From positions 1 to 20,182 of IMG/VR virus record IMGVR_UViG_3300017719_000303: 20,182 nucleotides of DNA; one strand, written 5' to 3'. A program made the translations under genes and the position numbers. Positions 2,976 through 19,178 of the stretch are shown piece by piece. Below the pieces are notes generated by a model, which was not told the origin of the DNA, did not search any database, and saw only the letters and a list, made by a program, of their open reading frames with translations. This stretch comes from a virus. The first letter of the stretch is position 1. Each line of letters starts with the position of its first letter.

Positions 2976-3480
2976 AGATTTCACGTTGGTACAAGATAAT
3001 TTCTTGTCAAATAATGAGTGTGATGAGTTAGTAGAAAAATATAAAAATCTTACATCTGAATTTGATAATAATAAGTATGGTTATTCATCATACTTTACGA
3101 ACAATATAACATTTTCAGATCAATTAAAAACATTAATAGATACATACACAAAAACATTTAAGGAAAGTGCTTTGACACCTTATCCTTGGGTATTAAAAGA
3201 ACTTAGGTTTAAATGGTTTAAACCAGGCAACTGGTTCAAAGATTTTCATTGTGAGCATGGATATGATAATAACAAAAGAGTATTAAACTTTATGATATAT
3301 CTATCAGATCATAATTGTGGTACAGAGTTTTATACAGGTGAAGTAATTAAATCTATAAAAGGTAGGGTTGCTATGTTCCCAGCCTACTTTACACATCTAC
3401 ATAGAGGACAACAATGTCCTGATAACCATGATAGATATATTATGGGTGGCTATTTTAATTATGAAGATAATCAAAGATAA
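2941..3480 (+). CDS. 2OG-Fe(II) oxygenase-like protein with HxE motif
   Basis: A 179-residue protein whose start overlaps the previous gene by 35 bases; no other in-frame ATG exists until far downstream. The core has His103-x-Glu105 (FHCEHGYDNN), then VLNFMIYLSDHNCGTEFYTGE, and IKGRVAMFPAYFTHLHRGQ, with His152/His154 and the anchor Arg165 in DRYIMGGYF. The usual Asp of HxD is Glu here. The THLHRG element is typical of small phage and bacterial hydroxylases of this fold. The N-terminal domain (FTLVQDNFLSNNECDELVEKY) is the common helical start. Substrate unknown. It overlaps the next gene by 20 bases, so the block is probably translated together. Confidence 0.72.
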   Translation: MSSDYQTKKKHKDFTLVQDNFLSNNECDELVEKYKNLTSEFDNNKYGYSSYFTNNITFSDQLKTLIDTYTKTFKESALTPYPWVLKELRFKWFKPGNWFKDFHCEHGYDNNKRVLNFMIYLSDHNCGTEFYTGEVIKSIKGRVAMFPAYFTHLHRGQQCPDNHDRYIMGGYFNYEDNQR

Positions 3481-3976
3481 AGATTTTTTAAAAGATAAAC
3501 ATAAGGACTTTATATCAGAGTTTATTCTAAAGGCTGATTTTCCTTATTTCATACAACCACATTCTACATTTGATGACGACTACACAATGATGGAACATAT
3601 ATGTTTACGAAGATATGATAAAGATTGGAATACAGGCAACGTAGATATGTATAAGGATATATTAAATACGTTTTGCAATAAACATGACATACGATATAAG
3701 GAAATATTAAGGTGCTCTGTAAATCTAACATTTAACGTGGGTATAAAAAAATCATTAGAACATACAGATCATAAAGAACCACACAAACAATTATTAATAT
3801 ATTGTAATGATGTAAAGGACAAAAGATCATACACAGTAATATTAGATGAAAATAGAAAACCTATAGATAAAATAAAACCTATACAATATAGTGCAGTAAG
3901 TTTTGGTGACAATCATCACTATCATTATTATCCAAGAATAGGTCATAGAGTTGTATTGGTATATACATTTAAATGA
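3461..3976 (+). CDS. Small 2OG-Fe(II) oxygenase-like protein, paralogue A
   Basis: A 171-residue protein taken from the ATG at 3461 (MKIIKDKDFL). A longer reading from 3368 would lie inside the previous gene, and its N-terminus has no counterpart in the paralogue. His101-x-Asp103 (EHTDHKEPHKQLLIY) and the HHYH cluster (His152, 153, 155), with Arg163 ten residues after His153, give the metal and 2-oxoglutarate pattern. It is about the same length as the next gene and follows it along the whole chain (DKDFL, DFPxFI, LRR, SxNLTxN, SYTVI, YxFP/YYPxxGxR, VYTFK/VFTFK). The substrate is unknown. Confidence 0.7.
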   Translation: MKIIKDKDFLKDKHKDFISEFILKADFPYFIQPHSTFDDDYTMMEHICLRRYDKDWNTGNVDMYKDILNTFCNKHDIRYKEILRCSVNLTFNVGIKKSLEHTDHKEPHKQLLIYCNDVKDKRSYTVILDENRKPIDKIKPIQYSAVSFGDNHHYHYYPRIGHRVVLVYTFK

Positions 3977-4494
3977 TAATAGATAAAGATTTTTTAAGTA
4001 AGGAACAGATAGCGTATATTGAAAATCATATTTTTAGTAATGACTTTCCTTGGTTTATTGAGAACAGGAGTGTTGTCGGCAGAAAGAATAAACCTTTTCT
4101 AAAACATACGGTATTAAGAAGACCTGAGGAAAGAGAAGAAGGAGAATATTTTAGGTCATATATGGGCAAATTCTGTTTAGGTATATTAGATAATTTTGCA
4201 AAAAATAATACTATGACTATAATAGATGTGCTTAGAATAAGTATCAATCTAACATATAACAATGGTTATGAAAAATGTAATGTACACCAAGACCATGAAT
4301 ATAATCATTCACAACTGCTTGTATATATAAATGAGTGTGATAAAAAATCATATACAGTAATTAAGAATGGTAAGAAGGAAATAAAAGTAAGACCAGAGAA
4401 GTATAAAGTTGTTTGTTTTGACAATCAACCTCACTATCTATATTTTCCTAAAAAAGGCCTTAGAGCTGTTATGGTATTTACATTTAAAATATGA
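3973..4494 (+). CDS. Small 2OG-Fe(II) oxygenase-like protein, paralogue B
   Basis: A 173-residue protein that overlaps the previous stop by four bases (ATGA). His105-x-Asp107 (VHQDHEYNHSQLLVYI), His154 (QPHYLYFPKKG) and Arg164, exactly ten residues later, complete the triad and anchor. It is the tandem paralogue of the gene before it, sharing motif order and length but with clear divergence, so the duplication is old. The reading frame is intact and both copies keep the catalytic residues, suggesting two distinct functions. Its stop overlaps the start of uvsW by four bases. Confidence 0.7.
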   Translation: MIIDKDFLSKEQIAYIENHIFSNDFPWFIENRSVVGRKNKPFLKHTVLRRPEEREEGEYFRSYMGKFCLGILDNFAKNNTMTIIDVLRISINLTYNNGYEKCNVHQDHEYNHSQLLVYINECDKKSYTVIKNGKKEIKVRPEKYKVVCFDNQPHYLYFPKKGLRAVMVFTFKI

Positions 4495-5945
4495 TTAAAG
4501 TAAAAAAATTAAATACGGTCTATTTACAGATAGAGGCAGAAGCAGATGTTAGACGTGAATTAACAGATTATTTTTCTTTTGAGGTACCTGGTTATAAGTT
4601 TACACCACAATTTAGAAACAGAGTTTGGGATGGTAAGATACGATTATATTCATATGCCACAGGTCAATTATATGTTGGATTGTATCCCTATCTAAAAGAC
4701 TGGTGTAATAAGAAAAACATAGAAATAGAAGAAAACAACGAGATTCATACAATTCAATCGCACACAGCCGCCGATATAGACGAATTAGTCAAGTCTTATG
4801 AACTCTCTATCACACCGAGAGATTATCAAATTGACGCATTTAAATATGCCTTAGATTACGAGAGAGGATTAATATTATCGCCTACTGCGTCTGGTAAATC
4901 ACTTATCGCATATCTATTGGTAAGACACTATCTAAACGTGATAGATAACAACATACTCATAATAGTACCAACAACATCATTAGTAGAACAACTATACAAA
5001 GACTTTAAAGACTATGGATTTGATGTAGAAAATAATGTAAGTAGAAACTACCATGGTTACGAAATAGAAGAAGGCAAACGAATAGTTATCTCTACTTGGC
5101 AATCTCTATATAAACTCCCAAAAACTTTTTTCGCTGACTTCGGCGCTGTTATAGGTGATGAAGCTCATTTATTTAAAGCTGTATCTCTGACGAAGATAAT
5201 GACGAAACTGACCGATTGTAAATATCGTATTGGTATGACTGGTACCTTAGATGGTACTAAAACCCATAAGTTAGTATTAGAAGGTCTATTTGGTAGAGTA
5301 AACAAAGTTGTATCTACTAGAGAACTAATAGATAAAAAACAACTTGCAGATTTAAAAATAATATGCCTAGTATTAAAACATACAGAGGCAGAAGCAAAAG
5401 CGATTTACAAAGAAAAGTATCATAAAGAGTTAGAATATCTAGCTCAGAGTGAGAAAAGAAATAAGTATATAAGAAATCTAGCAACAGCCTTGAATGGTAA
5501 TACTTTAATACTATTTCAACTTGTAGAAAAACATGGTAAGGAGTTATATGAACTTATACGAAACAAAGCAGGAGACCGAGAAGTCTTCTTTGTCTATGGA
5601 GGAGTTGACACCCAACAAAGAGAACAAGTTAGAGCAATCACAGAAAAAAGCGATGACGCTATTATCGTGGCTTCCTATGGGACTTTCTCTACGGGGATTA
5701 ACATACGGAACTTGCATAACATTATTTTTGCTAGTCCTTCTAAATCTAGGATAAGAAATCTACAATCAATAGGTAGAGGTTTAAGGATAGGTGATAGTAA
5801 AGATACAGCGACATTATATGACATATCAGATGACCTGACATATAAAGAAAAGAAGAACTTTACGCTGACCCACTTTCAGGAAAGAATAAATATTTACAAC
5901 GAGGAGGGTTTCACATATGAGATCCATAGTGTGGAACTAAAGTAA
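4491..5945 (+). CDS. uvsW: UvsW superfamily 2 helicase
   Basis: A 484-residue protein (T4 UvsW is about 500). The N-terminal domain (1-100) has the UvsW-specific FTPQFRNRVWDGKIRLY. The helicase core follows: Q-motif-like ITPRDYQIDA, Walker A PTASGKS (131-137), motif Ia 'LIIVPTTSLVEQ', DEAH-type box G-D-E-A-H (222-226), motif III MTGTL and motif VI QSIGRGLRIG (425-434). UvsW unwinds branched DNA and R-loops. In T4 it drives the change from origin-dependent to recombination-dependent replication and assists branch migration in repair. It is separated from uvsY here by five oxygenase genes. Confidence 0.92.
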   Translation: MIKVKKLNTVYLQIEAEADVRRELTDYFSFEVPGYKFTPQFRNRVWDGKIRLYSYATGQLYVGLYPYLKDWCNKKNIEIEENNEIHTIQSHTAADIDELVKSYELSITPRDYQIDAFKYALDYERGLILSPTASGKSLIAYLLVRHYLNVIDNNILIIVPTTSLVEQLYKDFKDYGFDVENNVSRNYHGYEIEEGKRIVISTWQSLYKLPKTFFADFGAVIGDEAHLFKAVSLTKIMTKLTDCKYRIGMTGTLDGTKTHKLVLEGLFGRVNKVVSTRELIDKKQLADLKIICLVLKHTEAEAKAIYKEKYHKELEYLAQSEKRNKYIRNLATALNGNTLILFQLVEKHGKELYELIRNKAGDREVFFVYGGVDTQQREQVRAITEKSDDAIIVASYGTFSTGINIRNLHNIIFASPSKSRIRNLQSIGRGLRIGDSKDTATLYDISDDLTYKEKKNFTLTHFQERINIYNEEGFTYEIHSVELK

Positions 5946-5946
5946 T

Positions 5947-6372
5947 ATGGTTAAAATAATTCGACTAATATCTGGCGAAGAAATCTGTTGTGTAATTCCT
6001 AAAGAACAAATTAAAGATAATAAAACGCTTATAAGATTATCTGAGCCAATGTTAATTAAATACGTGCCTAAAATAACCGAGATGGGGATATCAGATTATA
6101 TCGCATTGGTTAAATGGGTTGGGTTTACTAATGATAAAATTATAACAATACCAAAAGATAAGATTATGACTATCGCAAATGCCACAGAGCCTTTTACTAG
6201 AAGATATCATCATTTAGTAGATACAATAAACAAACAAAATCAAAAACTTCCTGCCTTTATAGAAAGAGATATGTCAGATGAAGACTATGATAATTATGAT
6301 AATAAAACTCAAAAAGAGAACCTTGATGATTTAAAAGAATACTTTGATATGCCTAGCAAAAAGATACACTAG
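5947..6372 (+). CDS. Conserved phage protein with LSm/Hfq-like N-terminus
   Basis: A 141-residue protein. The start, MVKIIRLISGEEICCVIP, followed by LIRLSEPMLI and a short strand pattern to about residue 75, resembles the Sm1/Sm2 strands of LSm-like phage proteins (lysine or valine, then 'LxSGEE' and a second strand). Residues 90-141 are charged and probably unstructured (DEDYDNYDNKTQKE). An RNA-binding role is the common guess for such folds, but nothing here proves it. It begins one base after the uvsW stop, so it belongs to that unit. Confidence 0.5.
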   Translation: MVKIIRLISGEEICCVIPKEQIKDNKTLIRLSEPMLIKYVPKITEMGISDYIALVKWVGFTNDKIITIPKDKIMTIANATEPFTRRYHHLVDTINKQNQKLPAFIERDMSDEDYDNYDNKTQKENLDDLKEYFDMPSKKIH

Positions 6373-6376
6373 CTAA

Positions 6377-6390
6377 GGTCCCTGGTGACC
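6377..6390 (+). other. Short inverted repeat in the 71-base gap
   Basis: GGTC (6377-6380) and GACC (6387-6390) can pair around a six-base loop in the gap 6373-6443. There is no T-run after it and no convincing -35/-10 pair, so it is only a weak structural candidate. The rest of the gap shows nothing recognisable. Confidence 0.2.
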
Positions 6391-6443
6391 AACCCACATA
6401 GGGTATTATATCAGAAAAACCTAACCTGTCAAGCGACCGTGAA

Positions 6444-7049
6444 ATGAATTTACATATACCATTAAAGAACGTACCTATAATATCAATAAAAGACTTTCAT
6501 AAGTTTACAAAATATCAAAAAGATAAGATAATAAAAAATTTATTAGGTATAAAAGACCTTTGGGATAACCAACCTAATTCAAATAAATCAACTACTAATT
6601 TTGAGATATTATATAATAAAGATGACAAAAAGTATAATAATCTTATTAATGACCTATATGATAAATTTTATAGAGTAGCACAACAGTTATTTAATTTTAC
6701 AGTATCAAAGAAAAGTAAAAGAATATGTTGGGCATGTATTACTAATAAAGAATACTATAACTTTGTGCCACATAATCATATAAAGTCATCTACTATTAAT
6801 GCTGTATATTACTTAAATATACCTAGAATAAACAAGAAATTATCAGGTCCTGTAAAGTTTAAAGTAGATAATAAATGGATATACTATCAACCAGATAATA
6901 ACGAGTTAATATTATTCCCAAATTATCTTATACATGACGCAACTAAACACAACTCAAAAGAATGGAGAGTAAGTATAAACATGGAAATACTATGTAGAGA
7001 AGATAAGGATTATATTGTGCATGTCCTTGACAAAAACAACAAAATGTAG
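6444..7049 (+). CDS. 2OG-Fe(II) oxygenase-like protein, HxH subfamily
   Basis: A 201-residue protein. The core reads VPHNHIKSSTINAVYYLNIP, with His110-Asn-His112 in place of HxD. After it come GPVKF, 'NNELILFPNYLIHDATKH' with His164, and Arg175 in EWRVSINMEI. The arrangement H-x-H, SG/NAVYYL, LFP-x-YLIH, RVSIN is that of the putative 2OG-Fe(II) oxygenase family I know as PF13759. It stands upstream of gp55 and shares its pattern with the genes at 8667 and 12628. The last part carries the promoter for gp55. Start ATG 6444 has only a weak ribosome site. Confidence 0.65.
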   Translation: MNLHIPLKNVPIISIKDFHKFTKYQKDKIIKNLLGIKDLWDNQPNSNKSTTNFEILYNKDDKKYNNLINDLYDKFYRVAQQLFNFTVSKKSKRICWACITNKEYYNFVPHNHIKSSTINAVYYLNIPRINKKLSGPVKFKVDNKWIYYQPDNNELILFPNYLIHDATKHNSKEWRVSINMEILCREDKDYIVHVLDKNNKM

Positions 7050-7055
7050 TATTAT
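7027..7055 (+). promoter_or_regulatory. Strong sigma70-like promoter at gp55
   Basis: A perfect TTGACA (7027-7032), 17-base spacer and TATTAT (7050-7055) lie in the end of the previous gene. Transcription would start near 7061-7063, at or next to the gp55 ATG (7062), giving a leaderless or near-leaderless message. No ribosome-binding sequence precedes that ATG, which fits. Confidence 0.5.
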
Positions 7056-7061
7056 ATAATT

Positions 7062-7610
7062 ATGACTAGAACAAAGAAAAAATCAGTACATTATGTAAGC
7101 AATAAAGAGTTTTTACAGGCAATGATTGAATACAAGGATCGTTGTGAAAAGGCAGATAAAAGAAAAAGAAAAAGACCTCCTGTGACTAACTACATTGGTG
7201 AATGTTTTTTAAAGATAGCAAATCATTTATCATACAGACCTAACTTTATAAATTACACATTTAGAGATGACATGATAAGTGATGGTATAGAAAACTGCTT
7301 ACAATATTTAAATAATTTTAACCCACAAAAATCAAATAACCCATTTGCTTATTTTACGCAGATAATATATTATGCGTTTATTAGAAGAATACAGAAAGAG
7401 AAAAAACAAGCAAATATAAAATATAAGATGATTGAACAGGCAGGTATTGATGAGTTTGATACACTACCTGGAGATACTAATACAGAATATAAGAATCAAT
7501 TTTTAGAATTTTTAAGAAAGAATAGACCAACAACCGAAGAACCAAAAAAGAGTGAAATAAAAGTTAAGAAAAGAAAAAGAAGAAATTACACAAGCGTTTT
7601 AGATACATAA
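7062..7610 (+). CDS. 55: gp55 late sigma factor
   Basis: A 182-residue protein (T4 gp55 is 185). The centre has NYIGECFLKIANHLSYRPNF, then 'FRDDMISDGIENCLQYLNNF' and NPFAYFTQIIYYAFIRRIQKEKKQ, the region 2-like helix that binds core RNA polymerase and the -10 element. The T4 protein carries the same FRDEMI..GIE.C..Y..NF and NPFAYFTQI elements. It directs host RNA polymerase to TATAAATA late promoters. The C-terminus is Lys/Arg rich. Start ATG 7062 has no ribosome site. The stop and the next ATG share one base (TAATG at 7608-7612). Confidence 0.93.
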   Translation: MTRTKKKSVHYVSNKEFLQAMIEYKDRCEKADKRKRKRPPVTNYIGECFLKIANHLSYRPNFINYTFRDDMISDGIENCLQYLNNFNPQKSNNPFAYFTQIIYYAFIRRIQKEKKQANIKYKMIEQAGIDEFDTLPGDTNTEYKNQFLEFLRKNRPTTEEPKKSEIKVKKRKRRNYTSVLDT

Positions 7611-8674
7611 TGAAAATTGCAATATTAAATGATACACACTTCGGTGTTCGTAATGATAGCGAAGCATTTAGAAAATATCAATTAAGATTTTATAACGAAA
7701 TCTTTTTTCCTTACCTAGAAAAAAACAATATTAAAACACTAATACATTTAGGCGATGTTGTTGATAGAAGAAAATTTATTAACTTTCAAACTGCCTCTAT
7801 TTACAGACAACAATTCTGGGACAGATTATATAAAGAAAAGATTGATACACATATAATCATAGGTAACCATGATACCTATTTTAAAAATACAAATGAGGTA
7901 AATGCTATAGAAAATTTATATACAAGTTTTGATGGTGTTAATGAACCATTTATATACACTAAACCTAAAGTCGTAGATTTTGATGGCACTTCTATATTAT
8001 TAATGCCTTGGATATGTGATGATACTAAAGAAGAATCTATACAGATGTTGAATACAGCAAAGGCAGATTTATGTTTTGGTCATTTAGAGATTAAAGGTAT
8101 AGAAATGCAGAATGGTGTAATCAATGAGTTTGGTAATGATAAGGCAGACTTCAAAAGATTTGATAGAGTAATTTCAGGTCACTTTCACAAACATACAGAT
8201 GATGGTCAGATATTTTATTGTGGTGCTCAATATGAGATGACATGGTCAGATTACCAAGACCCTAAAGGTTTTCATATCTTTGATACAGAAACAAGAGAGA
8301 TTGAAAGAATATGGAATCCTCTAACTATTCATAAAAAAATAATATATGATGACAAGAAAAAAGATTACATAAACTATGATATACAACCTTATCATAATCA
8401 CTTTATAAAATTAATAGTCTTAAATAAGACAGATGATAACCAATTTGACAAATTTGTTGAAAGGTTGTATAATGAGATAACGGTACATGATTTAAATATT
8501 ATAGAAGATTACTCTGATATAAAAGCAAGTGTAAGAGATGACATAGTTGAAATGGGTGAGGATACTGTCACATTCCTAAATAACTATGTAGATCAACTTG
8601 AAACAGATGTAAATAAAACTAAACTAAAAGAGTATTTAAAATCATTTTACATAGAAGCAAACGACAATGCCTAA
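7610..8674 (+). CDS. 47: gp47 recombination nuclease subunit (SbcD/Mre11-like)
   Basis: A 354-residue protein (T4 gp47 is 339). Metallophosphoesterase motifs are complete: D8-x-H10 (NDTHFG), G48-D49-VVD (GDVVDRR), G85-N86-H87-D88 (GNHDTY), FGHLEIKG and G190-H191-F-H193 (GHFHKH). With gp46 it forms the Mre11/Rad50-type complex that resects DNA ends for recombination-dependent replication and breaks down host DNA. It is separated from gp46 by one oxygenase-like gene, with which it overlaps by eight bases. Confidence 0.95.
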   Translation: MKIAILNDTHFGVRNDSEAFRKYQLRFYNEIFFPYLEKNNIKTLIHLGDVVDRRKFINFQTASIYRQQFWDRLYKEKIDTHIIIGNHDTYFKNTNEVNAIENLYTSFDGVNEPFIYTKPKVVDFDGTSILLMPWICDDTKEESIQMLNTAKADLCFGHLEIKGIEMQNGVINEFGNDKADFKRFDRVISGHFHKHTDDGQIFYCGAQYEMTWSDYQDPKGFHIFDTETREIERIWNPLTIHKKIIYDDKKKDYINYDIQPYHNHFIKLIVLNKTDDNQFDKFVERLYNEITVHDLNIIEDYSDIKASVRDDIVEMGEDTVTFLNNYVDQLETDVNKTKLKEYLKSFYIEANDNA

Positions 8675-9275
8675 ACCTAAACCAAGTAAAAAAATTATCA
8701 GACAAGAAAATCTATGGCCTACGCCATATTGGTATACACAACTATGGGATTTTATGAGAAGTGAAACTAGAGTTACCTTCAATGATGATTTTACAGGTTA
8801 TATTCTAAATGAAGAACAAAATAATAAGTCTGTTAGAAAATCAAACAGAGGTGGTTGGCAAAGTCATTCAACAAACGCTACAGATGAAAATTATAAACCA
8901 CTAGTAGATGAGATTATGGAGTTTGTAAAACATTTAAATTTAGATGTTAAAGATATGCAAATAGCACAACTATGGGCAAATGTAAATAGAAAAAATGATT
9001 ATAATATAATACATCAACATGGACAATACAGTCTATCAGGAACTTATTATGTTAAGGTACCTGAAGATTCTGGTCGTATCGTGTTTAGAGATCCAAGACC
9101 TGGTGCAATGGGCAATAATTTTTTAGTGAGTAATTTTGATAAAGGTGAGTTTAAAAAATTAAGTATAATGGAAGGACTACTTGCGATATGGCCTTCGTAC
9201 CTAGATCATCTTGTAGAACCAAGTAATACAGACGAGGAGAGAATATCAATTAGTTTTGATATAATTTGTAGATGA
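8667..9275 (+). CDS. 2OG-Fe(II) oxygenase-like protein (PF13759 type), HxH
   Basis: A 202-residue protein. The N-terminus has the family phrase NLWPTPYWYT. The core has 'NIIHQHGQYSLSGTYYVKVP' with His116-Gln-His118, SGRIVFRDPRPGAM, 'LAIWPSYLDHLVEPS' with His181, and Arg192 in ERISISFD. This is the full pattern of the family, with HxH where other dioxygenases have HxD. It lies between gp47 and gp46 and overlaps both (eight and four bases), so the three are translated together. Its substrate is unknown; co-translation hints at work on DNA ends or on a partner of the nuclease but does not show it. Confidence 0.75.
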   Translation: MPKPKPSKKIIRQENLWPTPYWYTQLWDFMRSETRVTFNDDFTGYILNEEQNNKSVRKSNRGGWQSHSTNATDENYKPLVDEIMEFVKHLNLDVKDMQIAQLWANVNRKNDYNIIHQHGQYSLSGTYYVKVPEDSGRIVFRDPRPGAMGNNFLVSNFDKGEFKKLSIMEGLLAIWPSYLDHLVEPSNTDEERISISFDIICR

Positions 9276-10981
9276 TATATTTTAAGAAGTTAAGATGGAA
9301 GAATTTTTTATCTACTGGTAATCAGTTTATAGAAGTTGACCTGGCAAAGTCACCATCAACATTAATCATAGGTTCTAACGGCTCAGGTAAATCTACTTTA
9401 CTTGACGCATTATGTTTTTCTCTATTTAACAGACCATTTAGAACTATTAAGAAAGAGCAATTAGTAAACACAATCAATAATGCTGATTGTGAGATACAGG
9501 TTGATTTTGAAACAAATGGTAAACAGTATAGAATTATTAGAGGTATCAAACCTAATTTATTTGAGATTTATTGTAATGATGTATTGATAAACCAAGACGC
9601 CTCAAATGTAGATTATCAAAACATGTTAGAACAGAATATTTTAAAATGCAATTATCGTGCTTTCTGTCAAGTAGTAATATTAGGGTCATCATCATACGAG
9701 CCATTTATGCACCTACGAGCAAGATACAGACGAGAGGTTGTAGAGGAAATATTAGACATAAGAGTTTTTAGTCATATGGATTTATTGTTAAGACACAAAC
9801 AAGCTGAACTATCTAAAAATATTGTAGATGTTAGGCATAGATATGATTTGATGTCAGAGAAATATCAATTACAGAAAGACCATTTTGAACACATACAAAA
9901 TAGAGATAACACAGACATAGAAGATCGAAGATCACAACTAAAAGAAAATGATAAAAGTAATTATGAGTACAATCAAAAATTACAATTGTTAAATGAGAAG
10001 ATTATATCAACAAAGGCAGAGATATGGGGCGGTGATAAGTTTACAAGAAAGTCTGCTGACCTTTCTAAACTAGAGGCAAAGATAGAAACTAATTTATCTA
10101 ATCATAAAAAGACTTTAGAATTTTTTAAGAATAATGATACTTGTAATACATGTACACAACCCATAGATAAAGCATTTAAACAAAGTAAAATATCAAGTGA
10201 AGAAAGTAAAATATCAGAGTTAGAAGCAGGCCTGACAAACCTATCAACAGAGATAATCAAAACACAGGATAAGATAACTGAATATAAAGCAGTAGAAAAA
10301 AGATTAAATGATTTAGATATATCTGTTGCAAAGGTTAACACCTCTATTTCAGAAATCAATAGACACTCAAATAGACTTGATATTGAGATACAGAAACTAC
10401 AATCAGAAAAAGAAAACACAGGTAAGGTTGCACATGAATTAGACCAATTGAACGAGGACCTAAAACAAATAAATGTTGACAAAGAAAAAGTTATAGAAGA
10501 AAAAAAATACATTGATATTGCTAGAGAGATATTAAATGATACAGGTGTCAAGGCAAAGATAATTAAAAAGTATCTGCCTATAATGAATAACTTAATTAAT
10601 AAATATCTACAATCTATGGACTTCTTTGTTAACTTTCATTTAGATGAGGAGTTTAACGAAACAATTAAGAGTAGATTTAGAGATACGTTTGTTTATAATA
10701 GTTTTAGTGAAGGTGAAAAATTAAGAATAGACCTTGCATTATTATTTACATGGCGAACAATCGCTAAGATGAAAAATAGTACAAATACAAATTTATTAAT
10801 ACTTGACGAGATATTTGATAGTAGTTTAGATGGTTCAGGTACCGAAGACTTCTTTAAAATATTAAAGTCATTGACAAGTGAAAATACATTTATTATATCT
10901 CACAAAGGCGATATATTATTTGATAAGTTTACTAATATAATAAAATTTGAGAAATATAAAAACTTTACGAGGTTAGCATAA
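9272..10981 (+). CDS. 46: gp46 recombination nuclease ATPase (SbcC/Rad50-like)
   Basis: A 569-residue protein (T4 gp46 is 560). N-terminal Walker A GSNGSGKST (34-42), then 'LCFSLFNRPF', a Q-loop region, a long coiled coil (about 180-430) with the zinc hook C291-x-x-C294 in its middle, and the C-terminal lobe with signature FSEGEKLRIDLALLF (478-492) and Walker B 'LLILDEIFDSSLD' (D512-E513). It is the ATPase and tether of the gp46/gp47 complex. The start overlaps the previous stop (ATGA). The gene ends in TAATG, shared with the deformylase start. Confidence 0.95.
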   Translation: MIYFKKLRWKNFLSTGNQFIEVDLAKSPSTLIIGSNGSGKSTLLDALCFSLFNRPFRTIKKEQLVNTINNADCEIQVDFETNGKQYRIIRGIKPNLFEIYCNDVLINQDASNVDYQNMLEQNILKCNYRAFCQVVILGSSSYEPFMHLRARYRREVVEEILDIRVFSHMDLLLRHKQAELSKNIVDVRHRYDLMSEKYQLQKDHFEHIQNRDNTDIEDRRSQLKENDKSNYEYNQKLQLLNEKIISTKAEIWGGDKFTRKSADLSKLEAKIETNLSNHKKTLEFFKNNDTCNTCTQPIDKAFKQSKISSEESKISELEAGLTNLSTEIIKTQDKITEYKAVEKRLNDLDISVAKVNTSISEINRHSNRLDIEIQKLQSEKENTGKVAHELDQLNEDLKQINVDKEKVIEEKKYIDIAREILNDTGVKAKIIKKYLPIMNNLINKYLQSMDFFVNFHLDEEFNETIKSRFRDTFVYNSFSEGEKLRIDLALLFTWRTIAKMKNSTNTNLLILDEIFDSSLDGSGTEDFFKILKSLTSENTFIISHKGDILFDKFTNIIKFEKYKNFTRLA

Positions 10982-11469
10982 TGATATATAAATTATTACC
11001 ACCAAACGATCCAAGAGTATTATCATCAATAGCAGAATTTGATATTGAAAGATTCAAAGATGAAGAAAAGATAGAACTAAAAGAATTTGTAGATAATATG
11101 TTTGAGACCATGAAACAATATGGTGGTATAGGATTGTCTGCTAATCAAGTAGGTAAACCATATAGAATGTTTGTTATGGGTGATCACCTAAATATACAAA
11201 AGAATAAGAAGTGGGTTTGTATTAATCCTAAAATTACAAATGTCACTAAAGAGTTGATAAGATATAAAGAAGGTTGTCTAACTTTTCCTTTCTTATTTTT
11301 AGATATAGAAAGACCACAAGATATATCGGTTGAGTACCTAGATGAAAATTTAGAAAAAAAAGAAGAACATATGTCAGGTATTGTGGCAAGATGTTTTCAA
11401 CATGAATTTGACCATATGCAAGGCATAGTATTTACAGAGCATGTCAGTAAATTAAAACTAGAGATGTAA
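10981..11469 (+). CDS. def: Peptide deformylase
   Basis: A 162-residue protein of full family length. The three motifs are present: GGIGLSANQVG (48-58, catalytic Gln56), EGCLTFP (97-103, metal Cys99) and QHEFDHMQG (metal His141 and His145, catalytic Glu142). It removes the formyl group from nascent chains. Deformylases are common in marine phages, usually explained as maintaining or speeding maturation of rapidly made proteins. The EGCLTFP form (T in place of the more usual S) is typical of phage and organelle-like versions. A GAGG site precedes the ATG. The start shares one base with the gp46 stop. Confidence 0.93.
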   Translation: MIYKLLPPNDPRVLSSIAEFDIERFKDEEKIELKEFVDNMFETMKQYGGIGLSANQVGKPYRMFVMGDHLNIQKNKKWVCINPKITNVTKELIRYKEGCLTFPFLFLDIERPQDISVEYLDENLEKKEEHMSGIVARCFQHEFDHMQGIVFTEHVSKLKLEM

Positions 11470-11510
11470 ATAAAAAAAAGAAATAAAGAAATTAAAAAGG
11501 CACAAAAAAG

Positions 11511-12137
11511 ATGGCAATCCTCACAGAATTAGATTTACCACAATATAAACAGAGTTTAAGAAAGTGTGTAGCGTTTTTAAATAACATTGAATATTCACCT
11601 GTAAAAACAAAATACAACGCAAAGGGTGATTGGGATGCTATATCAATTAGAGGATATAGTGATGATGTAGGCAACATTTTAAAACCTGGTGTTTTAAAAA
11701 GTAATGTAGAACCATCTCATTTAAGATGGACACATCTATATGAAGAACCTGATTGTTTACCTATAAAAGAAATACTATCACATATACCTGCTGAGTTTGA
11801 AAGAGTAAGAGTTATGAGATTAAAAGCAGGTACAACTATAAAAAAACATACAGACAAAATAGATAAAGAAATTAAGAATAAGAATATTATTAGAATACAC
11901 ATACCATTAAAGACAAGTTTAAATGTTCACTTCTACCTATGGGAAGGTAAGGAACAACATCACTATAATTTAGAAACAGGAAAATATTATTATACAGACG
12001 TTTCAAAACCACATGCTGTTCACAATAAAGCAGATTTTGATAGATTACATCTTGTGGTTGATTGTTATAATAACCCTAAAATAAAAAGTTTATTAGATGA
12101 TGATAGATTAAATACAATGGTAGGCGTAGATATATGA
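11511..12137 (+). CDS. Aspartyl/asparaginyl beta-hydroxylase-like oxygenase
   Basis: A 208-residue protein. The core reads 'RVMRLKAGTTIKKHTDKID', with His113-x-Asp115, then IIRIHIPLKTSLNVHFYLWEG and YTDVSKPHAVHNKADFDRLHLVVD, where His168 and Arg178 stand ten residues apart. The order matches the Asp/Asn beta-hydroxylase branch of the 2-oxoglutarate oxygenases (family PF05118-like). The N-terminal 90 residues contain 'GDWDAISIRGYSDD', seen in related phage proteins. It follows a 41-base A-rich stretch (11470-11510) with AAGG before the ATG. Substrate unknown; this branch usually acts on proteins. Confidence 0.75.
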   Translation: MAILTELDLPQYKQSLRKCVAFLNNIEYSPVKTKYNAKGDWDAISIRGYSDDVGNILKPGVLKSNVEPSHLRWTHLYEEPDCLPIKEILSHIPAEFERVRVMRLKAGTTIKKHTDKIDKEIKNKNIIRIHIPLKTSLNVHFYLWEGKEQHHYNLETGKYYYTDVSKPHAVHNKADFDRLHLVVDCYNNPKIKSLLDDDRLNTMVGVDI

Positions 12138-12247
12138 GTTTTTTAGTATGGCACATGCTTGCGATATTGACAATTATGATAATATCGTTTATAATAGGTT
12201 ATAGTGTAGGTGAAAAAAATGTTAATAGCAAAAGAAGAAGATTTTGA
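12134..12247 (+). CDS. 37-residue membrane peptide
   Basis: The ATG at 12134 overlaps the previous stop (ATGA). It encodes Met-Ser-Phe-Leu-Val-Trp, then a continuous hydrophobic stretch (about residues 3-25: LVWHMLAILTIMIISFIIGY) and a basic tail ending KRRRF. This is one transmembrane helix with positive charges at the C-terminal end, so the C-terminus is likely cytoplasmic. The last 29 bases overlap the next gene. The stop-start overlap and clean helix suggest a real gene, but its length is too small for a firm call; no function is recognised. Confidence 0.45.
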   Translation: MSFLVWHMLAILTIMIISFIIGYSVGEKNVNSKRRRF

Positions 12248-12644
12248 ACAAGTAAAAACCATATTTTATAAACATAAGAAATGGTTTCCCCATGTAAGAA
12301 CTGATTACATGAGGCGTATGATTGCAAAACAACAATTAATTTTAGAAGAAGGTATATTGATTACCTTTCATCACGCTAAAAGAAAACAAACTATTGGCGA
12401 TGTTCATGTGAAAAAAGGCGATACTGTATTACATCAAATTGCAAATGATGACCCAGGTAGTGGTAATGCAAAAGTAATATTACAGAATTTTTTTGAGTGG
12501 TGTCCTAGAGATGTATTCTTATCAGTAAGATCAGACAACACAAAGGCATGTAGTTTCTATGAACAGATAGGAATGAAACTAGTAGGAGAAACTAGTTGGG
12601 CAAGAGGTACTTTACCAGGCAAGGTTTATGCAAAAAGAAAGTAA
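12219..12644 (+). CDS. GNAT-family acetyltransferase
   Basis: A 141-residue protein with the start taken as ATG 12219 (AGGTG at 12208-12212 upstream); GTG 12210 in frame is an alternative. The pattern is GNAT-like: a short N-terminal helix (DFEQVKTIFYKHKKWF), strands (ILEEGILITF), then GSGNAKVILQNFFEW (the acetyl-CoA binding region, with a degenerate Q/RxxGxG loop 'DDPGSGNAK'), and the terminal V-RSDNTKACSFYEQIGMKLVGE motif, which is very typical of the family (N..A..FYE..GF). It probably acetylates an amine on an unknown target. Confidence 0.7.
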   Translation: MLIAKEEDFEQVKTIFYKHKKWFPHVRTDYMRRMIAKQQLILEEGILITFHHAKRKQTIGDVHVKKGDTVLHQIANDDPGSGNAKVILQNFFEWCPRDVFLSVRSDNTKACSFYEQIGMKLVGETSWARGTLPGKVYAKRK

Positions 12645-13182
12645 TATATCATTTCACTCATTAAATAGTTTTTATATGATAACGACATTAGAAAAATTTA
12701 GTTTCTTTAATAGAAAGTTATTAGAACACTTTGATAAAATGCCTAACCTTAGTTTTGCTAATGTGACAAAAACTGATTGGTCTATGAGTAAAGAAGAGTC
12801 AGATAAGAAAACATACATCAAACCTTTTTTTAAAAAGATCACTCCTTACTATAATAAGATTGCAAAACAATTAGGTAAAAAAAGGTGGGGATGGAGAGCA
12901 GGCAATATCTGGTTTCAACAATATAATGAAAAGAGTGATCATCACTGGCACAATCACTGGTATGCTAATTGGACTAATGTATATTATGTTGAACTGCCTG
13001 ATAGATCATTAACAACACAATTATATGATACATTGAGAAAAAAAATTATAAATGTAAAATTAAGAGAGGGACAGTTATTAACTTTTCCCGCTCATGTAAT
13101 GCACAGGTCACCTGTAAATAAATCTAAAGAAAGAAAAACTGTTATATCGTTTAATACTAATATAAACATGGAGACAAAATGA
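12628..13182 (+). CDS. 2OG-Fe(II) oxygenase-like protein, HxH subfamily
   Basis: A 184-residue protein from ATG 12628 (AAGG three bases upstream, 17-base overlap); ATG 12676 (MITTLEKFSFF) is an equally plausible start giving 168 residues. With 12628 numbering the core is HHWHNHWYANWTNVYYVELP (His108-Asn-His110), then 'GQLLTFPAHVMHRSPVNKS' with His156/His159, and Arg169 in ERKTVISFN. The W-H-x-H, NVYYV, TFP...H, R pattern matches the genes at 6444 and 8667. The gene ends four bases into the methyltransferase gene (ATGA overlap). Confidence 0.65.
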   Translation: MQKESNISFHSLNSFYMITTLEKFSFFNRKLLEHFDKMPNLSFANVTKTDWSMSKEESDKKTYIKPFFKKITPYYNKIAKQLGKKRWGWRAGNIWFQQYNEKSDHHWHNHWYANWTNVYYVELPDRSLTTQLYDTLRKKIINVKLREGQLLTFPAHVMHRSPVNKSKERKTVISFNTNINMETK

Positions 13183-14320: not shown

Positions 14321-14377
14321 TTGACGTACCATTTAGTGCTTGTTTAATATACCGTAATAGTGTAGCATAAGTGTATA
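14321..14377 (+). promoter_or_regulatory. Promoter region of the CobT-like gene
   Basis: The 121-base gap 14259-14379 holds TTGTTT (14340-14345), 17 bases, TAGCAT (14363-14368), embedded in the 22-base element (14356-14377) that is repeated before the CobS-like gene. A second pair, TTGACG (14321-14326) and TAATAT (14345-14350), 18 bases apart, offers an alternative start. Confidence 0.45.
14356..14377 (+). repeat. 22-base promoter-like element, copy 1
   Basis: The element starts AATAGTGTAGCATA and ends TGTATA. It matches positions 16557-16578 at 20 of 22 bases. It ends two bases before the ATG at 14380. Confidence 0.6.
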
Positions 14378-14379
14378 TT

Positions 14380-16521
14380 ATGAATAAAAACACTATGAAT
14401 AAATCACAACTTGCAAAATTACTTGCTACTGAAAATATAGAAGTACAAGAAAACGCTGTACAGACTGCTTCGTTTGATGTAGTTAACAGAGTATTAACAA
14501 TCCCAATATTTAAAGAAGAACACAAATCTAAACATGTATATGACATGTTAGTAGGACATGAGGTATCTCATGCTTTACATACACCATCTGATTCATGGAA
14601 AGAGATGGCAAAAAGAACTAAAGAATTTAAGTCATTTGTAAATGTTATTGAAGACGCTAGAATTGACAAGTTAATTCAAAAGAAGTATCCTGGTTTAACA
14701 GATGATTACCTACAAGGTTTTGATAAGATGTTAAAAGATGATTTCTTTAAAACAAAAGGTAAGAACTTACAAAATGATTATGCTCTTATTGATAAGATCA
14801 ACTTATATTATAAGTCTTCAAAAAGATTAGATTTCAATTTTACTCCTAAAGAAAAAATCCTAGTTAACGCTGTTGACAAGTGTAAAACCTTTGATGATGT
14901 TTTAAAGTTATCAGAGGAAATACTAGGGTATTGTAAAGATGAATTAAAGAAAAATCAACAATTACAAAAAGTTTATACACAAGACCCTAATGGTGAGAAG
15001 GTTGGCGACTCTGATTTAGATAGTGAGTCTTCATCTAGTAAAAGTACAGATGAAAAATTAGACGAATGGTTAGAGAAGAAGTCAGAATCAGATGGTGATA
15101 ATGATGATACTGATAAGAAAAAAGAATCAAATACAATAGGTGCTAACGGTGCAGGTGGCGAAGGTACTGCTACTGAATTGAGATCATTAACTAATGATGA
15201 TATGGATAGTGCTGTGAAAGGTATTACAGATGATCAGGCTAGACAACGTGACTATTGCGAATTACCAAAAGTTAATCTTAAAAAATTAATTATTCCTTAT
15301 CAAAAGTTTATTAGAGATATTATGGTTTATGATAAACAACACCATAATACAGAATATGATAAACAACAAATCAATAAGGCAAAAGTTAGAACTCAAAAAT
15401 TTATGAAAGAGTCTTCTAATGTTGTAAATTATCTAGTTAAAGAATTTGAGATGAAAAAAAATGCCAAGTTATATGCTCGTGCTTCACAGGATAAAACAGG
15501 TATTATTGACCCTCTAAAATTACATAGTTATAAATTTGCTGAAGATATATTTAAAAAGATTACAACTGTACCTAATCAAAAAAATCACGGTATGATTTTA
15601 TTACTTGATTGGTCTGGCTCAATGCAAAAACATTTACTACCAACAGTAGAACAATTATTAAACTTGACTCTATTCTGTAAAAAGATCAATATACCTTTTT
15701 CAGTTTATGCGTTTATGAATAATCATAGAGAAACCAAAGATGACTATACAGACTCAGGTTTTTCTGTGACTAATAAATCTTTACAACCAGATGGTTCAAC
15801 TAGACTTGTTCAAGTGTTTTCACATAAACAATCAAAAGTTGATTACATGAGAAGTGCTACTATATTACATAGGGCTGCAATGTACTTTAATGACTATGGA
15901 TATAGAAGACATGATCATATGTTAGAGGATGAATCAGTACCTTCTATCTCTGGTGATTACTATCTATCTTCAACACCACTTAATGAGTCGTTGATTGCCT
16001 TAGATACTATAATTGCTAAATTTAAAAAAGATTATAATACAGATAAACTTTCACTTGTTACCTTAACAGATGGTGCTTCTAATTCAATGAATCACAAAGG
16101 TCATGGTGAGATTTATGTAAAACTTAATAACAGATATGTACAGGCTGGTAGTTATTGGGGTGACAACAAAGACCTTACAAGTGTTATGTTAAAGTATCTT
16201 AAAAAGAAATATGATTTACAGACTATTGGTTTCTATCTAGTTTCAAAATATAGAGAATTACAATACATGTTAAAAGTGCCATACAATAAAGAGATGTTGG
16301 CTAGAAAGATGTTTACTAAAGATAAGTTTATTGCTGACTATTCAAAGGCATATGATGTTTACTTCTATGTTAAATCTGATACTAGGGTTGCGAATCAAGT
16401 GTTTAATTCTAATTCAGATTCAACCAATAAGAGAACTTTAAAAAAGATGTTTATGTCTGGTATGAAAAATAGAATAAACAGTAGGGTTTTATTACAGAAT
16501 TTTATTAAGAGGATCGCTTAA
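14380..16521 (+). CDS. CobT-like protein: HExxH metallopeptidase-like + VWA domain
   Basis: A 713-residue protein starting at ATG 14380 (a GTG at 14371 in frame lies in the promoter element). Residues 59-64 read G-H-E-V-S-H, a complete HExxH zinc motif, and Glu91 in IEDARIDKL, 27 residues later, could be the third ligand. A low-complexity acidic/Ser stretch (about 205-260: SESSSSKS, DGDNDD) is followed by a C-terminal von Willebrand A domain with metal-site motif D410-W-S412-G-S414, STPLNESL (the T motif) and TDG (563-565). This layout, with an AAA+ partner next door, is that of CobT/DUF2201-like proteins. Marine phage copies are usually annotated as cobaltochelatase CobT, but no CobN is present in the window, so another remodelling or protease-like role is likely. 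Confidence 0.75.
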   Translation: MNKNTMNKSQLAKLLATENIEVQENAVQTASFDVVNRVLTIPIFKEEHKSKHVYDMLVGHEVSHALHTPSDSWKEMAKRTKEFKSFVNVIEDARIDKLIQKKYPGLTDDYLQGFDKMLKDDFFKTKGKNLQNDYALIDKINLYYKSSKRLDFNFTPKEKILVNAVDKCKTFDDVLKLSEEILGYCKDELKKNQQLQKVYTQDPNGEKVGDSDLDSESSSSKSTDEKLDEWLEKKSESDGDNDDTDKKKESNTIGANGAGGEGTATELRSLTNDDMDSAVKGITDDQARQRDYCELPKVNLKKLIIPYQKFIRDIMVYDKQHHNTEYDKQQINKAKVRTQKFMKESSNVVNYLVKEFEMKKNAKLYARASQDKTGIIDPLKLHSYKFAEDIFKKITTVPNQKNHGMILLLDWSGSMQKHLLPTVEQLLNLTLFCKKINIPFSVYAFMNNHRETKDDYTDSGFSVTNKSLQPDGSTRLVQVFSHKQSKVDYMRSATILHRAAMYFNDYGYRRHDHMLEDESVPSISGDYYLSSTPLNESLIALDTIIAKFKKDYNTDKLSLVTLTDGASNSMNHKGHGEIYVKLNNRYVQAGSYWGDNKDLTSVMLKYLKKKYDLQTIGFYLVSKYRELQYMLKVPYNKEMLARKMFTKDKFIADYSKAYDVYFYVKSDTRVANQVFNSNSDSTNKRTLKKMFMSGMKNRINSRVLLQNFIKRIA

Positions 16522-16604
16522 TGTGCGACATTTTGCGCTCTTGTGAAATCGCTAGAAATAGTGTAGCATATATGTATAACTTAACTATGAAAGGACTTAT
16601 ATAA
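16521..16604 (+). CDS. Candidate 27-residue peptide linking cobT-like and cobS-like genes
   Basis: ATG 16521 shares a base with the previous stop (TAATG at 16519-16523) and the stop shares a base with the next ATG (TAATG at 16602-16606). AGAGGA (16508-16513) lies eight bases upstream. The reading (MCDILRSCEIARN... MKGLI) fills the gap exactly, but it is short, carries the promoter element inside it and resembles no known peptide. It may be chance or a coupling device. Confidence 0.25.
   Translation: MCDILRSCEIARNSVAYMYNLTMKGLI
16541..16578 (+). promoter_or_regulatory. Promoter of the CobS-like gene, with element copy 2
   Basis: TTGTGA (16541-16546), 17 bases, TAGCAT (16564-16569), within the second copy of the 22-base element (16557-16578). 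The same spacing and the same TAGCAT box occur upstream of the CobT-like gene. AAAGG (16589-16593) then precedes the ATG at 16604. Confidence 0.5.
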
Positions 16605-17803
16605 TGATTGAGTTAAACAAAACACAAAAAACGGTATTGAAAGTATTAAAAGATACTTACAAAAAAGATACCGTGACTAGGGCAGAGATTAATGCTCTTG
16701 TTAAAAAGAAGGTTATCAAAAATCCTTCTTGGTTAAAATCAGACAAGTACAAAGTTGATAGAGGAGTTTATACTCTTAATGTTGACTCTACTGCTGATGT
16801 AGAATCAAAAGTTGAACAACCTAAAGTTTCAACTGATACAAAGGCTGCTTATATTGTGTCTTCATTGACCGACAATGTAGTGCCTGCCAAAGATACTGAT
16901 TTCGTAAACTTTGGTAATTATGCAGATATTAAAAATATCGTAAAATCTAAAAAGTTTTATCCTGTTTTTATCACAGGTCTTTCTGGTAACGGTAAGACGC
17001 TTGCTGTGACTCAGGCATGTGCCGAGTCTAAAAGAGAGATGATTAGATGTAATATTACGATTGAGACCGATGAGGATGATTTGTTGGGTGGTTATAGACT
17101 TAAAGATGGTCAGACCGTGTGGCAAAATGGTCCTGTAATCGAGGCAATGGAAAGAGGTGCTGTTCTTTTACTTGATGAGATTGACCTTGCAAGTAATAAG
17201 ATCATGTGTTTACAACCTATCCTTGAAGGTTCAGGTGTCTATGTTAAAAAGATTAACAAGTTTGTTAAACCAAAGATTGGCTTTAATGTGATTGCAACTG
17301 CTAACACTAAAGGTCAAGGTAGTGATGACGGTAAGTTTATCGGTACTAATGTTCTTAACGAGGCTTTCCTAGAAAGATTCCCAGTTACCTTTGAACAACA
17401 ATATCCTTCTGCTAAGATTGAAGAAAAAATTGTTGCTCAAAAACTTGTAAGTGCAGGTAAGAGTGATGTTAAGTTTGCTCACAATCTAGTGACTTGGGCT
17501 GACGTTATAAGAAAAACTTATAATGATGGCGGCGTTGATGAGATTATATCAACTAGAAGACTTGTCCATATTGCTGAGGCATACGGTATCTTTAAAAACA
17601 AAATGAAGGCAATCGCTGTTTGTACTAATAGATTTGATGATGATACTAAAACATCATTTGTTGATTTGTATAGTAAAGTTGATAGTGGTGCTTCAGTTGA
17701 ACAGATACTTGAAGATAAGAAAAATGCTGAAGAGGCAGAAATCTTAAACGAAAAGAATTCCGATGATGATGAGGATGGTGAAGAGGAGGACATGAATGTC
17801 TAA
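16604..17803 (+). CDS. CobS-like MoxR-family AAA+ ATPase
   Basis: A 399-residue protein. Residues 1-60 form a small basic, helical domain (NKTQKTVLKVLKDTYKKD, VTRAEINALVKKK). The AAA+ core has Walker A GLSGNGKT (125-132), a helix-2 loop (DEDDLLGGYRLKDGQTVWQ) typical of MoxR/CobS, Walker B VLLLDEID (187-194), sensor-1 'VIATANTKGQG' and sensor-2-like STRRLVHIAE. The tail is acidic (DDDEDGEEED). MoxR ATPases act with VWA proteins to remodel or insert cofactors into targets; CobS does this for cobaltochelatase. The VWA partner is the gene before it. Phage copies are often named cobS, but the function here is unproven. Confidence 0.8.
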   Translation: MIELNKTQKTVLKVLKDTYKKDTVTRAEINALVKKKVIKNPSWLKSDKYKVDRGVYTLNVDSTADVESKVEQPKVSTDTKAAYIVSSLTDNVVPAKDTDFVNFGNYADIKNIVKSKKFYPVFITGLSGNGKTLAVTQACAESKREMIRCNITIETDEDDLLGGYRLKDGQTVWQNGPVIEAMERGAVLLLDEIDLASNKIMCLQPILEGSGVYVKKINKFVKPKIGFNVIATANTKGQGSDDGKFIGTNVLNEAFLERFPVTFEQQYPSAKIEEKIVAQKLVSAGKSDVKFAHNLVTWADVIRKTYNDGGVDEIISTRRLVHIAEAYGIFKNKMKAIAVCTNRFDDDTKTSFVDLYSKVDSGASVEQILEDKKNAEEAEILNEKNSDDDEDGEEEDMNV

Positions 17804-19178
17804 TCTATTGAGTAACCAAAAAATCATCCATAGTGTAAGTCCGCTTGTGGCCAGTAATGGCCACAAGTTACCAACAGAGGACCTTGTATATAAAGGTGAA
17901 GTCTGTTGGGCTTATATCTTACACAATATAAAGAATAGTAAGTGGTACATAGGTATCTCAACAAAGGATCCTAGTGAGTATCAAACAAATTCTGAAAACA
18001 AAGAATTGATGAGGGCTATGTCAAGGAACGAAATACAGAGACGTATAATAAAGGTAGGTAGTAATCTTGCTCAGATGAAAGTATTTGAGAGGGATCTTAT
18101 TAAAGATACCGATGCCGTTAGTGACTCTAATAGTTATAACTTAGGTCCTGGTATAGTCGCTAAAGGCACTATCAGAGAACCTGATTTAGATAAGATGTTT
18201 GAGATTGCTAGACAAATACTTGAAGATAGGTCTTTGTTAGGTTGTAAGTTTTATAAATTAGACCTTATGAATCATAAAGATATTAAAAAAGGTAAAGGTT
18301 ATTTTTTACCAGATAGTAATTTAAAAGATTTAGTATCATTTCAAATTAGAGATGAAGCATTAAATTATGAACATTGTAATAGAATGGTTGAGAAGATTGA
18401 CTCTGCTCTAGGTAACCTTGAATTAATTGAACAAGAAACAGGTCAAAAGTTTCTAGTTATCATTTTAAGAGACGTAGAATACAAAGGCAGAGTGGTTGAT
18501 TTAATCATAGGTGGTAATCATACTATCTATGCCATAGAAAAATCAAAATTTTGTTATGAGTTGCCTATATTAGATATACCAAAAAGTGTACATGGTATAT
18601 GGACACTTGAAGAAAGAAGAAGTCTAGGTGAGTATTTAAATCCTATTTCTTCAGTTGTAAAATTAGAAACAAACGAAGACGATTTAATTAAAACTTGTTT
18701 ATCATTTGCTAATAGTTTTGGTATTGATACAGATGTTATAGGTAAACATTTAGATAAACATGGTATTGTAGGTAAACAAAGAAGTAGAATAAAAGCAAAT
18801 GTTACCTTGAAGTTTAAAAAACAAAAAGAAGAACAAGAAGCACCTACTAACTTTATAACCTATGAAAACTCTGAGGACAAAAGAGTACAGACAACTGTTA
18901 ATGAGAAGAAAAAAGAGGAACACACACTTGTTCAACCTATATCTTCTGGTAAGTTATCTGTGGGTGATGTTGTACAGAGATTAGTTAGAAAGGTTAAAGA
19001 TGATAAGATGAACTATAAAAGAATACATTTAGTTGTCTATCATCCTACTCATACTGCTAAGAAAAACTTTGATGACCAATGGGTACAGATGATACACGCA
19101 TGGGATTGGGCAGTTGATAAGACTAAAATTGAGGGTATAACATATGAAGAAATGCCATTTGAAAAGGAGGAAATATAA
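17796..19178 (+). CDS. GIY-YIG nuclease-like / ParB-like fusion protein
   Basis: A 460-residue protein. Residues 35-120 have a GIY-YIG-like domain: AYI (39-41), ten residues later YIG (51-53), then Arg82/83, Glu99 in FERDLI and Asn115 in YNLGPG, in the expected order. The first element is AYI, not GIY. Residues 217-270 read LVIILRDVEYKGRVVDLII and GGNHTIYAIEKS (239-250), like the ParB/sulfiredoxin phosphate-binding loop. Residues 300-350 (DLIKTCLSFANSFGIDTD) are helical and may bind DNA. The C-terminus holds KKK-rich and acidic stretches. Strong GAGGAGGA (17783-17790) precedes the ATG, which overlaps the AAA+ gene. A DNA-nicking or partition-like function is inferred only. Confidence 0.55.
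   Translation: MSNLLSNQKIIHSVSPLVASNGHKLPTEDLVYKGEVCWAYILHNIKNSKWYIGISTKDPSEYQTNSENKELMRAMSRNEIQRRIIKVGSNLAQMKVFERDLIKDTDAVSDSNSYNLGPGIVAKGTIREPDLDKMFEIARQILEDRSLLGCKFYKLDLMNHKDIKKGKGYFLPDSNLKDLVSFQIRDEALNYEHCNRMVEKIDSALGNLELIEQETGQKFLVIILRDVEYKGRVVDLIIGGNHTIYAIEKSKFCYELPILDIPKSVHGIWTLEERRSLGEYLNPISSVVKLETNEDDLIKTCLSFANSFGIDTDVIGKHLDKHGIVGKQRSRIKANVTLKFKKQKEEQEAPTNFITYENSEDKRVQTTVNEKKKEEHTLVQPISSGKLSVGDVVQRLVRKVKDDKMNYKRIHLVVYHPTHTAKKNFDDQWVQMIHAWDWAVDKTKIEGITYEEMPFEKEEI
17844..17867 (+). other. Perfect 10-base-pair hairpin with GTAA loop, in coding sequence
   Basis: CTTGTGGCCA, loop GTAA, TGGCCACAAG. In RNA this is a ten-pair stem capped by a GNRA tetraloop, extended by a G-U pair (17843/17868). 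It lies at codons 17-24 of the GIY-YIG/ParB-like gene, just after the start, where structure can influence translation. It could also be a protein-binding DNA site. Confidence 0.65.

Follow-up and report, generated by a model that had tools for sequence, protein, structure and literature searches.

Two adjacent genes in a 20,182-base IMG/VR virus record (IMGVR_UViG_3300017719_000303; G+C content, 30 to 33%), the whole of which is called the window here, encode a protein with an HExxH motif and a VWA domain (the HExxH-VWA protein) and an AAA+ ATPase. With a probability of roughly 60%, the pair is a metallopeptidase that is driven by the AAA+ protein, uses the VWA domain as an adaptor, and acts near the replisome or on a replication or recombination protein; metal binding, proteolysis, the contact between ring and VWA domain, and the site of action are what we infer. 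Both genes would encode one machine, in which a ring ATPase of the CbbQ/NorQ/CobS group works with a partner composed of an N-terminal zincin-type metallopeptidase domain (HExxH, probably HExxH...D) and a C-terminal VWA adaptor. The VWA domain would join the ring to the substrate via its metal-ion-dependent adhesion site (MIDAS), ATP hydrolysis would unfold or remodel the substrate, and the metallopeptidase domain would then cleave it. Because of the gene location and the promoter-like sites, this action may take place in the vicinity of proteins of replication and recombination, early or midway through infection.

Conservation and predicted fold of the HExxH domain

For the analysis of conservation, 186 virus and plasmid loci were fetched, nearly all with relatives, and 77 mobile-element proteins less than 85% identical were chosen, including those of Vibrio ICP2, SSU5-like phage-plasmids, Rhizobium, Roseobacter, and Gordonia phages, and two Pseudomonas plasmids. 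A first-pass annotation of this DNA had described an intact HEVSH motif and a VWA metal site. Both were found, the former at residues 60 to 64 and the latter as a complete MIDAS (DWSGS and Asp564). His60, Glu61, and His64 were kept in 75, 77, and 75 of the 77 homologues, respectively, compared with 77 for Asp410, Ser412, and Ser414 of the MIDAS and 76 for Asp564. By this alignment, the HExxH motif is about as well conserved as the MIDAS and is not a chance occurrence. When 47 N-terminal domains were aligned, with distant members only 13 to 18% identical to that of the window, just nine columns were invariant (A30, P42, H60, E61, H64, N88, E91, D92, and G105).

Glu91 had been proposed as a third metal ligand, but the neighboring Asp92 fits better. 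Each residue was kept in 76 of the 77 homologues. In ICP2, where HExxH is intact, the two positions read V-D; in phage nickie, where HExxH is lost, they read E-S. Among 126 scorable chromosomal CobT proteins, all without HExxH, Glu was present at position 91 in every one and Asp at position 92 in two. Since it is Asp92, not Glu91, that varies together with HExxH, Asp92 is more likely the third ligand, a preference of moderate weight given the few independent exceptions.

The structure of the N-terminal domain was predicted with AF2 (AlphaFold2; mean predicted local distance difference test [pLDDT], 89.1; predicted template modeling score [pTM], 0.85). The model comprised three strands, a helix (residues 51 to 67) with the HExxH motif, and a second helix (residues 81 to 102) with Glu91 and Asp92. 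Its top 13 PDB fold matches were all HExxH zincins, among them ArdC, selecase, jannalysin, and abylysin (E values, 0.08 to 0.57; probabilities, 0.66 to 0.99). Further zincins, including IrrE/PprI and ZMPSTE24, stood lower in the list, mixed with unrelated proteins. The likeness to zincins is thus claimed because all of the best matches are zincins, not because of any single match. No PDB relative of the domain was found by sequence profile. Taken together, conservation and predicted fold support a resemblance of the N-terminal domain to metallopeptidases. The first-pass annotation had named a cobN-like gene together with the lack of a metallopeptidase fold as its refutation; on both counts the outcome favored it, with a zincin-like model here and no cobN in the window or in 18 related phage records. 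For the full-length model (pLDDT, 75.6), the best PDB match was the VWA domain of NorD in complex with NorQ (9qh6; E value, 5.3e-4).

ArdC of plasmid R388 ranked first among the fold matches of the N-terminal domain, and ArdC-like zincin domains act in antirestriction. The pair might therefore be a counterdefense or DNA entry factor that inactivates a host defense protein, in keeping with weak Pfam matches of 6 of the 47 N-terminal domains to MPTase-PolyVal and with the spread of the family across phages and plasmids. We regard this as very unlikely, as the Pfam matches were below threshold, the position within the replication block is constant, and a defense library search with the window proteins gave no match.

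The AAA+ partner and the cobaltochelatase label

As the first-pass annotation had stated, an AAA+ gene follows. Its product matched AAA_5 (E value, 6.5e-17), CbbQ_C (4.1e-5), and phrog_249 (3.2e-123), and among PDB proteins CobS (7.9e-18) and NorQ (3.2e-12). Together with Walker A and B motifs and a neighboring VWA protein with a MIDAS, these matches place it among the CbbQ/NorQ/MoxR AAA+ proteins with a VWA partner. Midasin, nominally the best PDB match (E value, 2.7e-42), was rejected because its score is a sum over several AAA domains; the best single midasin AAA domain scored 46 bits, versus 68 for CobS. By eye, the first 62 residues of the AAA+ protein resemble a winged helix; no match for this domain was found in the databases searched. 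T4-like partners begin with a domain of this appearance, and non-T4-like ones (L081, L087, L088, L091, and L092) begin with a C2H2/ROS-MucR-like segment, for which the zinc finger matches were below threshold (E values, 0.008 to 0.15). A link of these segments to DNA is possible.

In phage records, the AAA+ gene carries the annotation 'cobS' or 'porphyrin biosynthesis'. T4-like cyanophages have 'cobS' in their core gene set (PMC3037559), and the gene is listed among the globally conserved viral auxiliary metabolic genes, which has been read as viruses possibly aiding vitamin B12 supply (PMC9301287). Liu et al. (2021) regarded 'peptidase' as a mistaken label and suggested that viral CobST makes use of the host's CobN (PMC8651126), a statement repeated in a later paper (PMC9503304). 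According to a 2023 paper, whether cyanophage cobS functions in cobalamin synthesis is unknown (PMC9983427). A literature search, with most subscription journals outside its reach, found no paper examining the HExxH motif. In phage Cyrano, the CobT-like protein (L081:2647-4755) bears the annotation 'dimethylbenzimidazole phosphoribosyltransferase', apparently because two unrelated proteins share the name CobT and were confused.

If Liu et al. and the usual auxiliary metabolic gene label are right, the pair joins host CobN, inserts cobalt, and raises cobalamin supply, and cobalamin can matter to some ribonucleotide reductases (PMC8651126). The kinship is real: besides the PDB match to CobS, the AAA+ protein scored 67.6 bits against the CobS model TIGR01650, and kinship with CobT is found via other phages. 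That score is far below the model's cut-off of 558.55, however, and the HExxH-VWA protein had no Pfam match of its own, including to the CobT families PF06213 and PF11775 and to DUF2201 (PF13203); its SSU5-like relative in Cyrano, unlike it, does match PF06213 and PF11775. Moreover, 130 alphaproteobacterial CobT proteins encoded on chromosomes (80 genes from named genomes and 50 CobT family genes drawn from alphaproteobacterial genomes) all lacked HExxH, the profile alignment placing SMALR or similar (SM..R) at its position. Two HExxH string matches among these genes fell upstream of the start, outside the protein.

The first-pass annotation had seen no CobN gene in the window. Indeed, PF02514 gave no match there, a negative that is weak alone because the record is only 20 kb. 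The search beyond the window, with Sinorhizobium meliloti as a positive control, found no CobN in 18 phage or virus records of different groups, 3 further virus records, and 3 plasmids with relatives, of which some virus records may be fragments. Nor was CobN found in Escherichia coli or Caulobacter, both in the control genome set, which did not extend to the likely Pelagibacter host; relatives of the HExxH-VWA gene nevertheless occur on E. coli plasmids. Chromosomal CobT itself often occurs without CobN: among 142 alphaproteobacterial genomes, CobT was found in 107 and CobN/BchH in 55, with both in at most 52 (three of the 55 had no CobT), so that about half of the CobT-bearing genomes, some of them incomplete, show no CobN. 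Caulobacter vibrioides is one genome with CobT in which CobN was not found. A second function for chromosomal CobST is possible. The view of the first-pass annotation that the pair is probably not a cobalt chelatase is thus supported, and a chelatase function appears quite improbable. Overall, the data favor 'peptidase' over 'cobaltochelatase' as a label, and the "viral B12 gene" of many reports probably bears the wrong name.

Several observations weigh against the metallopeptidase machine. By hhalign, the N-terminal domain of other phages and that of chromosomal CobT are related (probability, 93.5%), and this homology leaves room for a chelatase-like role. None of the zincin fold matches is significant singly (best E value, 0.08), and gene neighborhood is the sole basis for the association with the replisome. 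In addition, two phages have lost HExxH though they retain the pair (nickie, SE..K; BUCTxx99, RE..T), so some members may remodel their substrate without cutting it. These losses, and the absence of HExxH from chromosomal CobT, would suit a NorQD/CbbQO-like remodeling machine whose N-terminal domain serves just for binding or structure, as would the whole-model match to NorD and the AAA+ matches to NorQ and CbbQ. That the machine works without proteolysis is nonetheless unlikely in our judgment: Glu61, at the position of the catalytic base, is present in 77 of 77 homologues, HExxH is kept about as well as the MIDAS, and just two losses were seen among mobile-element members.

In a quick tree, chromosomal CobT formed one clade (support, 100) inside the HExxH-bearing sequences; the tree was midpoint rooted with long branches flagged, and its root is not established. 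This topology fits one loss of HExxH in chromosomal CobT and two separate losses in phages, if the direction of change is as we infer. We tentatively propose, at less than even odds, that the HExxH-VWA protein of mobile elements is an ATP-driven metallopeptidase serving DNA replication or recombination, that CobT is a descendant with a lost active site, and that viral 'cobS' encodes a protease motor and is not a B12 gene. If the pair is truly a protease machine, the inference from viral 'cobS' to a viral role in vitamin B12 supply falls, and the cobaltochelatase subunit CobT would be linked to an enzyme ancestor.

Gene neighborhood, distribution, and promoter-like sites

The HExxH-VWA protein is encoded by 463 phage records, nearly all of Synechococcus, Prochlorococcus, and Pelagibacter phages and mostly annotated 'peptidase'. 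Of 178 loci long enough to show it, 173 had the two genes side by side. In T4-like phages, they lie between gp46 and gp45/44/62, in the order gp46, HExxH-VWA, AAA+, gp45; in the window, they are preceded by a T4-like block encoding UvsW, the late sigma factor gp55, gp47, gp46, and peptide deformylase. DnaE (DNA polymerase III alpha) was encoded near the pair in 29 of 29 SSU5-like and 26 of 28 RHEph10-like loci. Of the earlier proposal of a 'phage-specific chaperone or protease machine', the metallopeptidase-like N-terminal domain held up by conservation and model; 'phage-specific' was too narrow, because the same architecture is also found on plasmids and phage-plasmids. An SSU5-like relative was carried by 219 of 5,426 complete E. 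coli genomes, always on plasmids. Plasmid pCAR1 and a Pseudomonas putida plasmid carry AAA+-DUF3150-HExxH-VWA gene sets (L086:4914-9052 and L084:4905-9498), that of the P. putida plasmid near RecT, a lambda-type exonuclease, and ssb. One viral scan with an Ochrobactrum phage protein as the query confirmed nothing.

A 22-base promoter-like element matched twice in the window (expected, 0.01), exactly ahead of the two genes (Table 1). In relatives, TTGACTTTT-N-TATAGCAT was present in 40 of 53 distinct upstream regions of the HExxH-VWA gene (expected, 0.8) and the same site in 35 of 42 of the AAA+ gene (expected, 0.9), the expectations for relatives coming from simple base shuffles. The site resembles a host-type sigma-70 promoter, with TTGACTTTT followed by TAGCAT at the usual spacing, and each gene has its own. 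Since such sites precede both genes, early or middle expression of the pair is suggested.

Table 1. Features of the HExxH-VWA and AAA+ genes and of other window genes
Feature	Position	Strand	Basis
HExxH-VWA protein ('peptidase' family phrog_459), 713 aa	14380..16521	+	ATG 14380, stop 16521
N-terminal zincin-like domain, residues 9-195	14404..14964	+	AF2 model; PDB fold matches
HEVSH motif	14557..14571	+	conservation; predicted helix
Glu91-Asp92	14650..14655	+	conservation; covariation of Asp92
Acidic/serine low-complexity linker, residues 195-264, predicted disordered	14962..15171	+	pLDDT <50 across most
VWA domain, about residues 403-713, exact borders inferred	15586..16518	+	NorD VWA fold match
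MIDAS DxSxS (DWSGS), residues 410-414	15607..15621	+	conservation
MIDAS Asp564	16069-16071	+	conservation
Promoter-like element AATAGTGTAGCATAAGTGTATA, upstream of HExxH-VWA gene	14356..14377	+	window scan
Same element AATAGTGTAGCATATATGTATA, upstream of AAA+ gene	16557..16578	+	window scan
AAA+ ATPase, CbbQ/NorQ/CobS/MoxR-like (phrog_249)	16604..17803	+	profile matches
AAA+ N-terminal domain, residues 1-62	16604..16789	+	inspection; conserved pattern in relatives
Walker A GLSGNGKT, residues 125-132	16976..16999	+	sequence, within AAA_5 match
Walker B LLLDE	17165-17179	+	sequence, within AAA_5 match
2OG-Fe(II) oxygenase or Asp/Arg hydroxylase matches	1306-2229, 2941-3480 (slightly below Pfam cut-off), 6444-7049, 8667-9275, 11511-12137, 12628-13182		family matches

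From an alternative GTG start at 14371, the HExxH-VWA open reading frame encodes 716 aa, of which residues 7 to 716 matched the phrog_459 profile (E value, 2.4e-174). The frame is interrupted in a contig 99% identical to the window (L025:6001-8147), by a sequencing error or a real break. At least six small proteins among the replication genes (window positions 1306 to 13182) match 2-oxoglutarate (2OG)-Fe(II) oxygenase or Asp/Arg hydroxylase families. The open reading frame after the pair (17796-19178) had a weak GIY-YIG nuclease match (E value, 0.12) as its sole match and no phage family match. Pelagibacter phage Mosig was the nearest isolate listed for both proteins of the pair (identity, 36% over the full length of HExxH-VWA and 71.5% for AAA+), so a SAR11 host is likely. 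SAR11 is without MetE and MetH (PMC12478193).

Comparison with known systems

The closest known counterparts are phrog_459 and phrog_249 of T4-like cyanophages and pelagiphages, which share family, gene order, and neighbors with the window pair and match it over the full length. Their published label is vitamin B12 synthesis, and even the best isolate is just 36% (HExxH-VWA) and 71.5% (AAA+) identical. CobS-CobT is likewise an AAA+ and VWA pair with an N-terminal domain related via other phages; CobT differs in that the HExxH position is occupied by SM..R or a similar string and the Asp92 position mostly by Gln, and it works with CobN, which was not found here. NorQ-NorD and CbbQ-CbbO, whose known targets are metalloenzymes, share the CbbQ-type AAA+ protein with a VWA adaptor, and NorD is the best structural match, but no HExxH zincin domain was recognized in them by these searches.

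DUF2201 proteins (PF13203, 'putative metallopeptidase', with a VWA-like domain) also combine HExxH with VWA, and in L318 the upstream frame looks AAA+-like by inspection. As a homologue, DUF2201 was rejected: the architecture is similar, but profile similarity was absent (hhalign, 0.7 to 8%, with three sequences only), as was a Pfam match. The region of the third ligand reads NxACDxxIN in DUF2201, compared with NxxEDxxID in the HExxH-VWA family. Finally, minigluzincins/selecase and ArdC have a zincin fold with an HExxH helix, like the model of the N-terminal domain, to which their fold match is weak; we know of no VWA or AAA+ partner for them.

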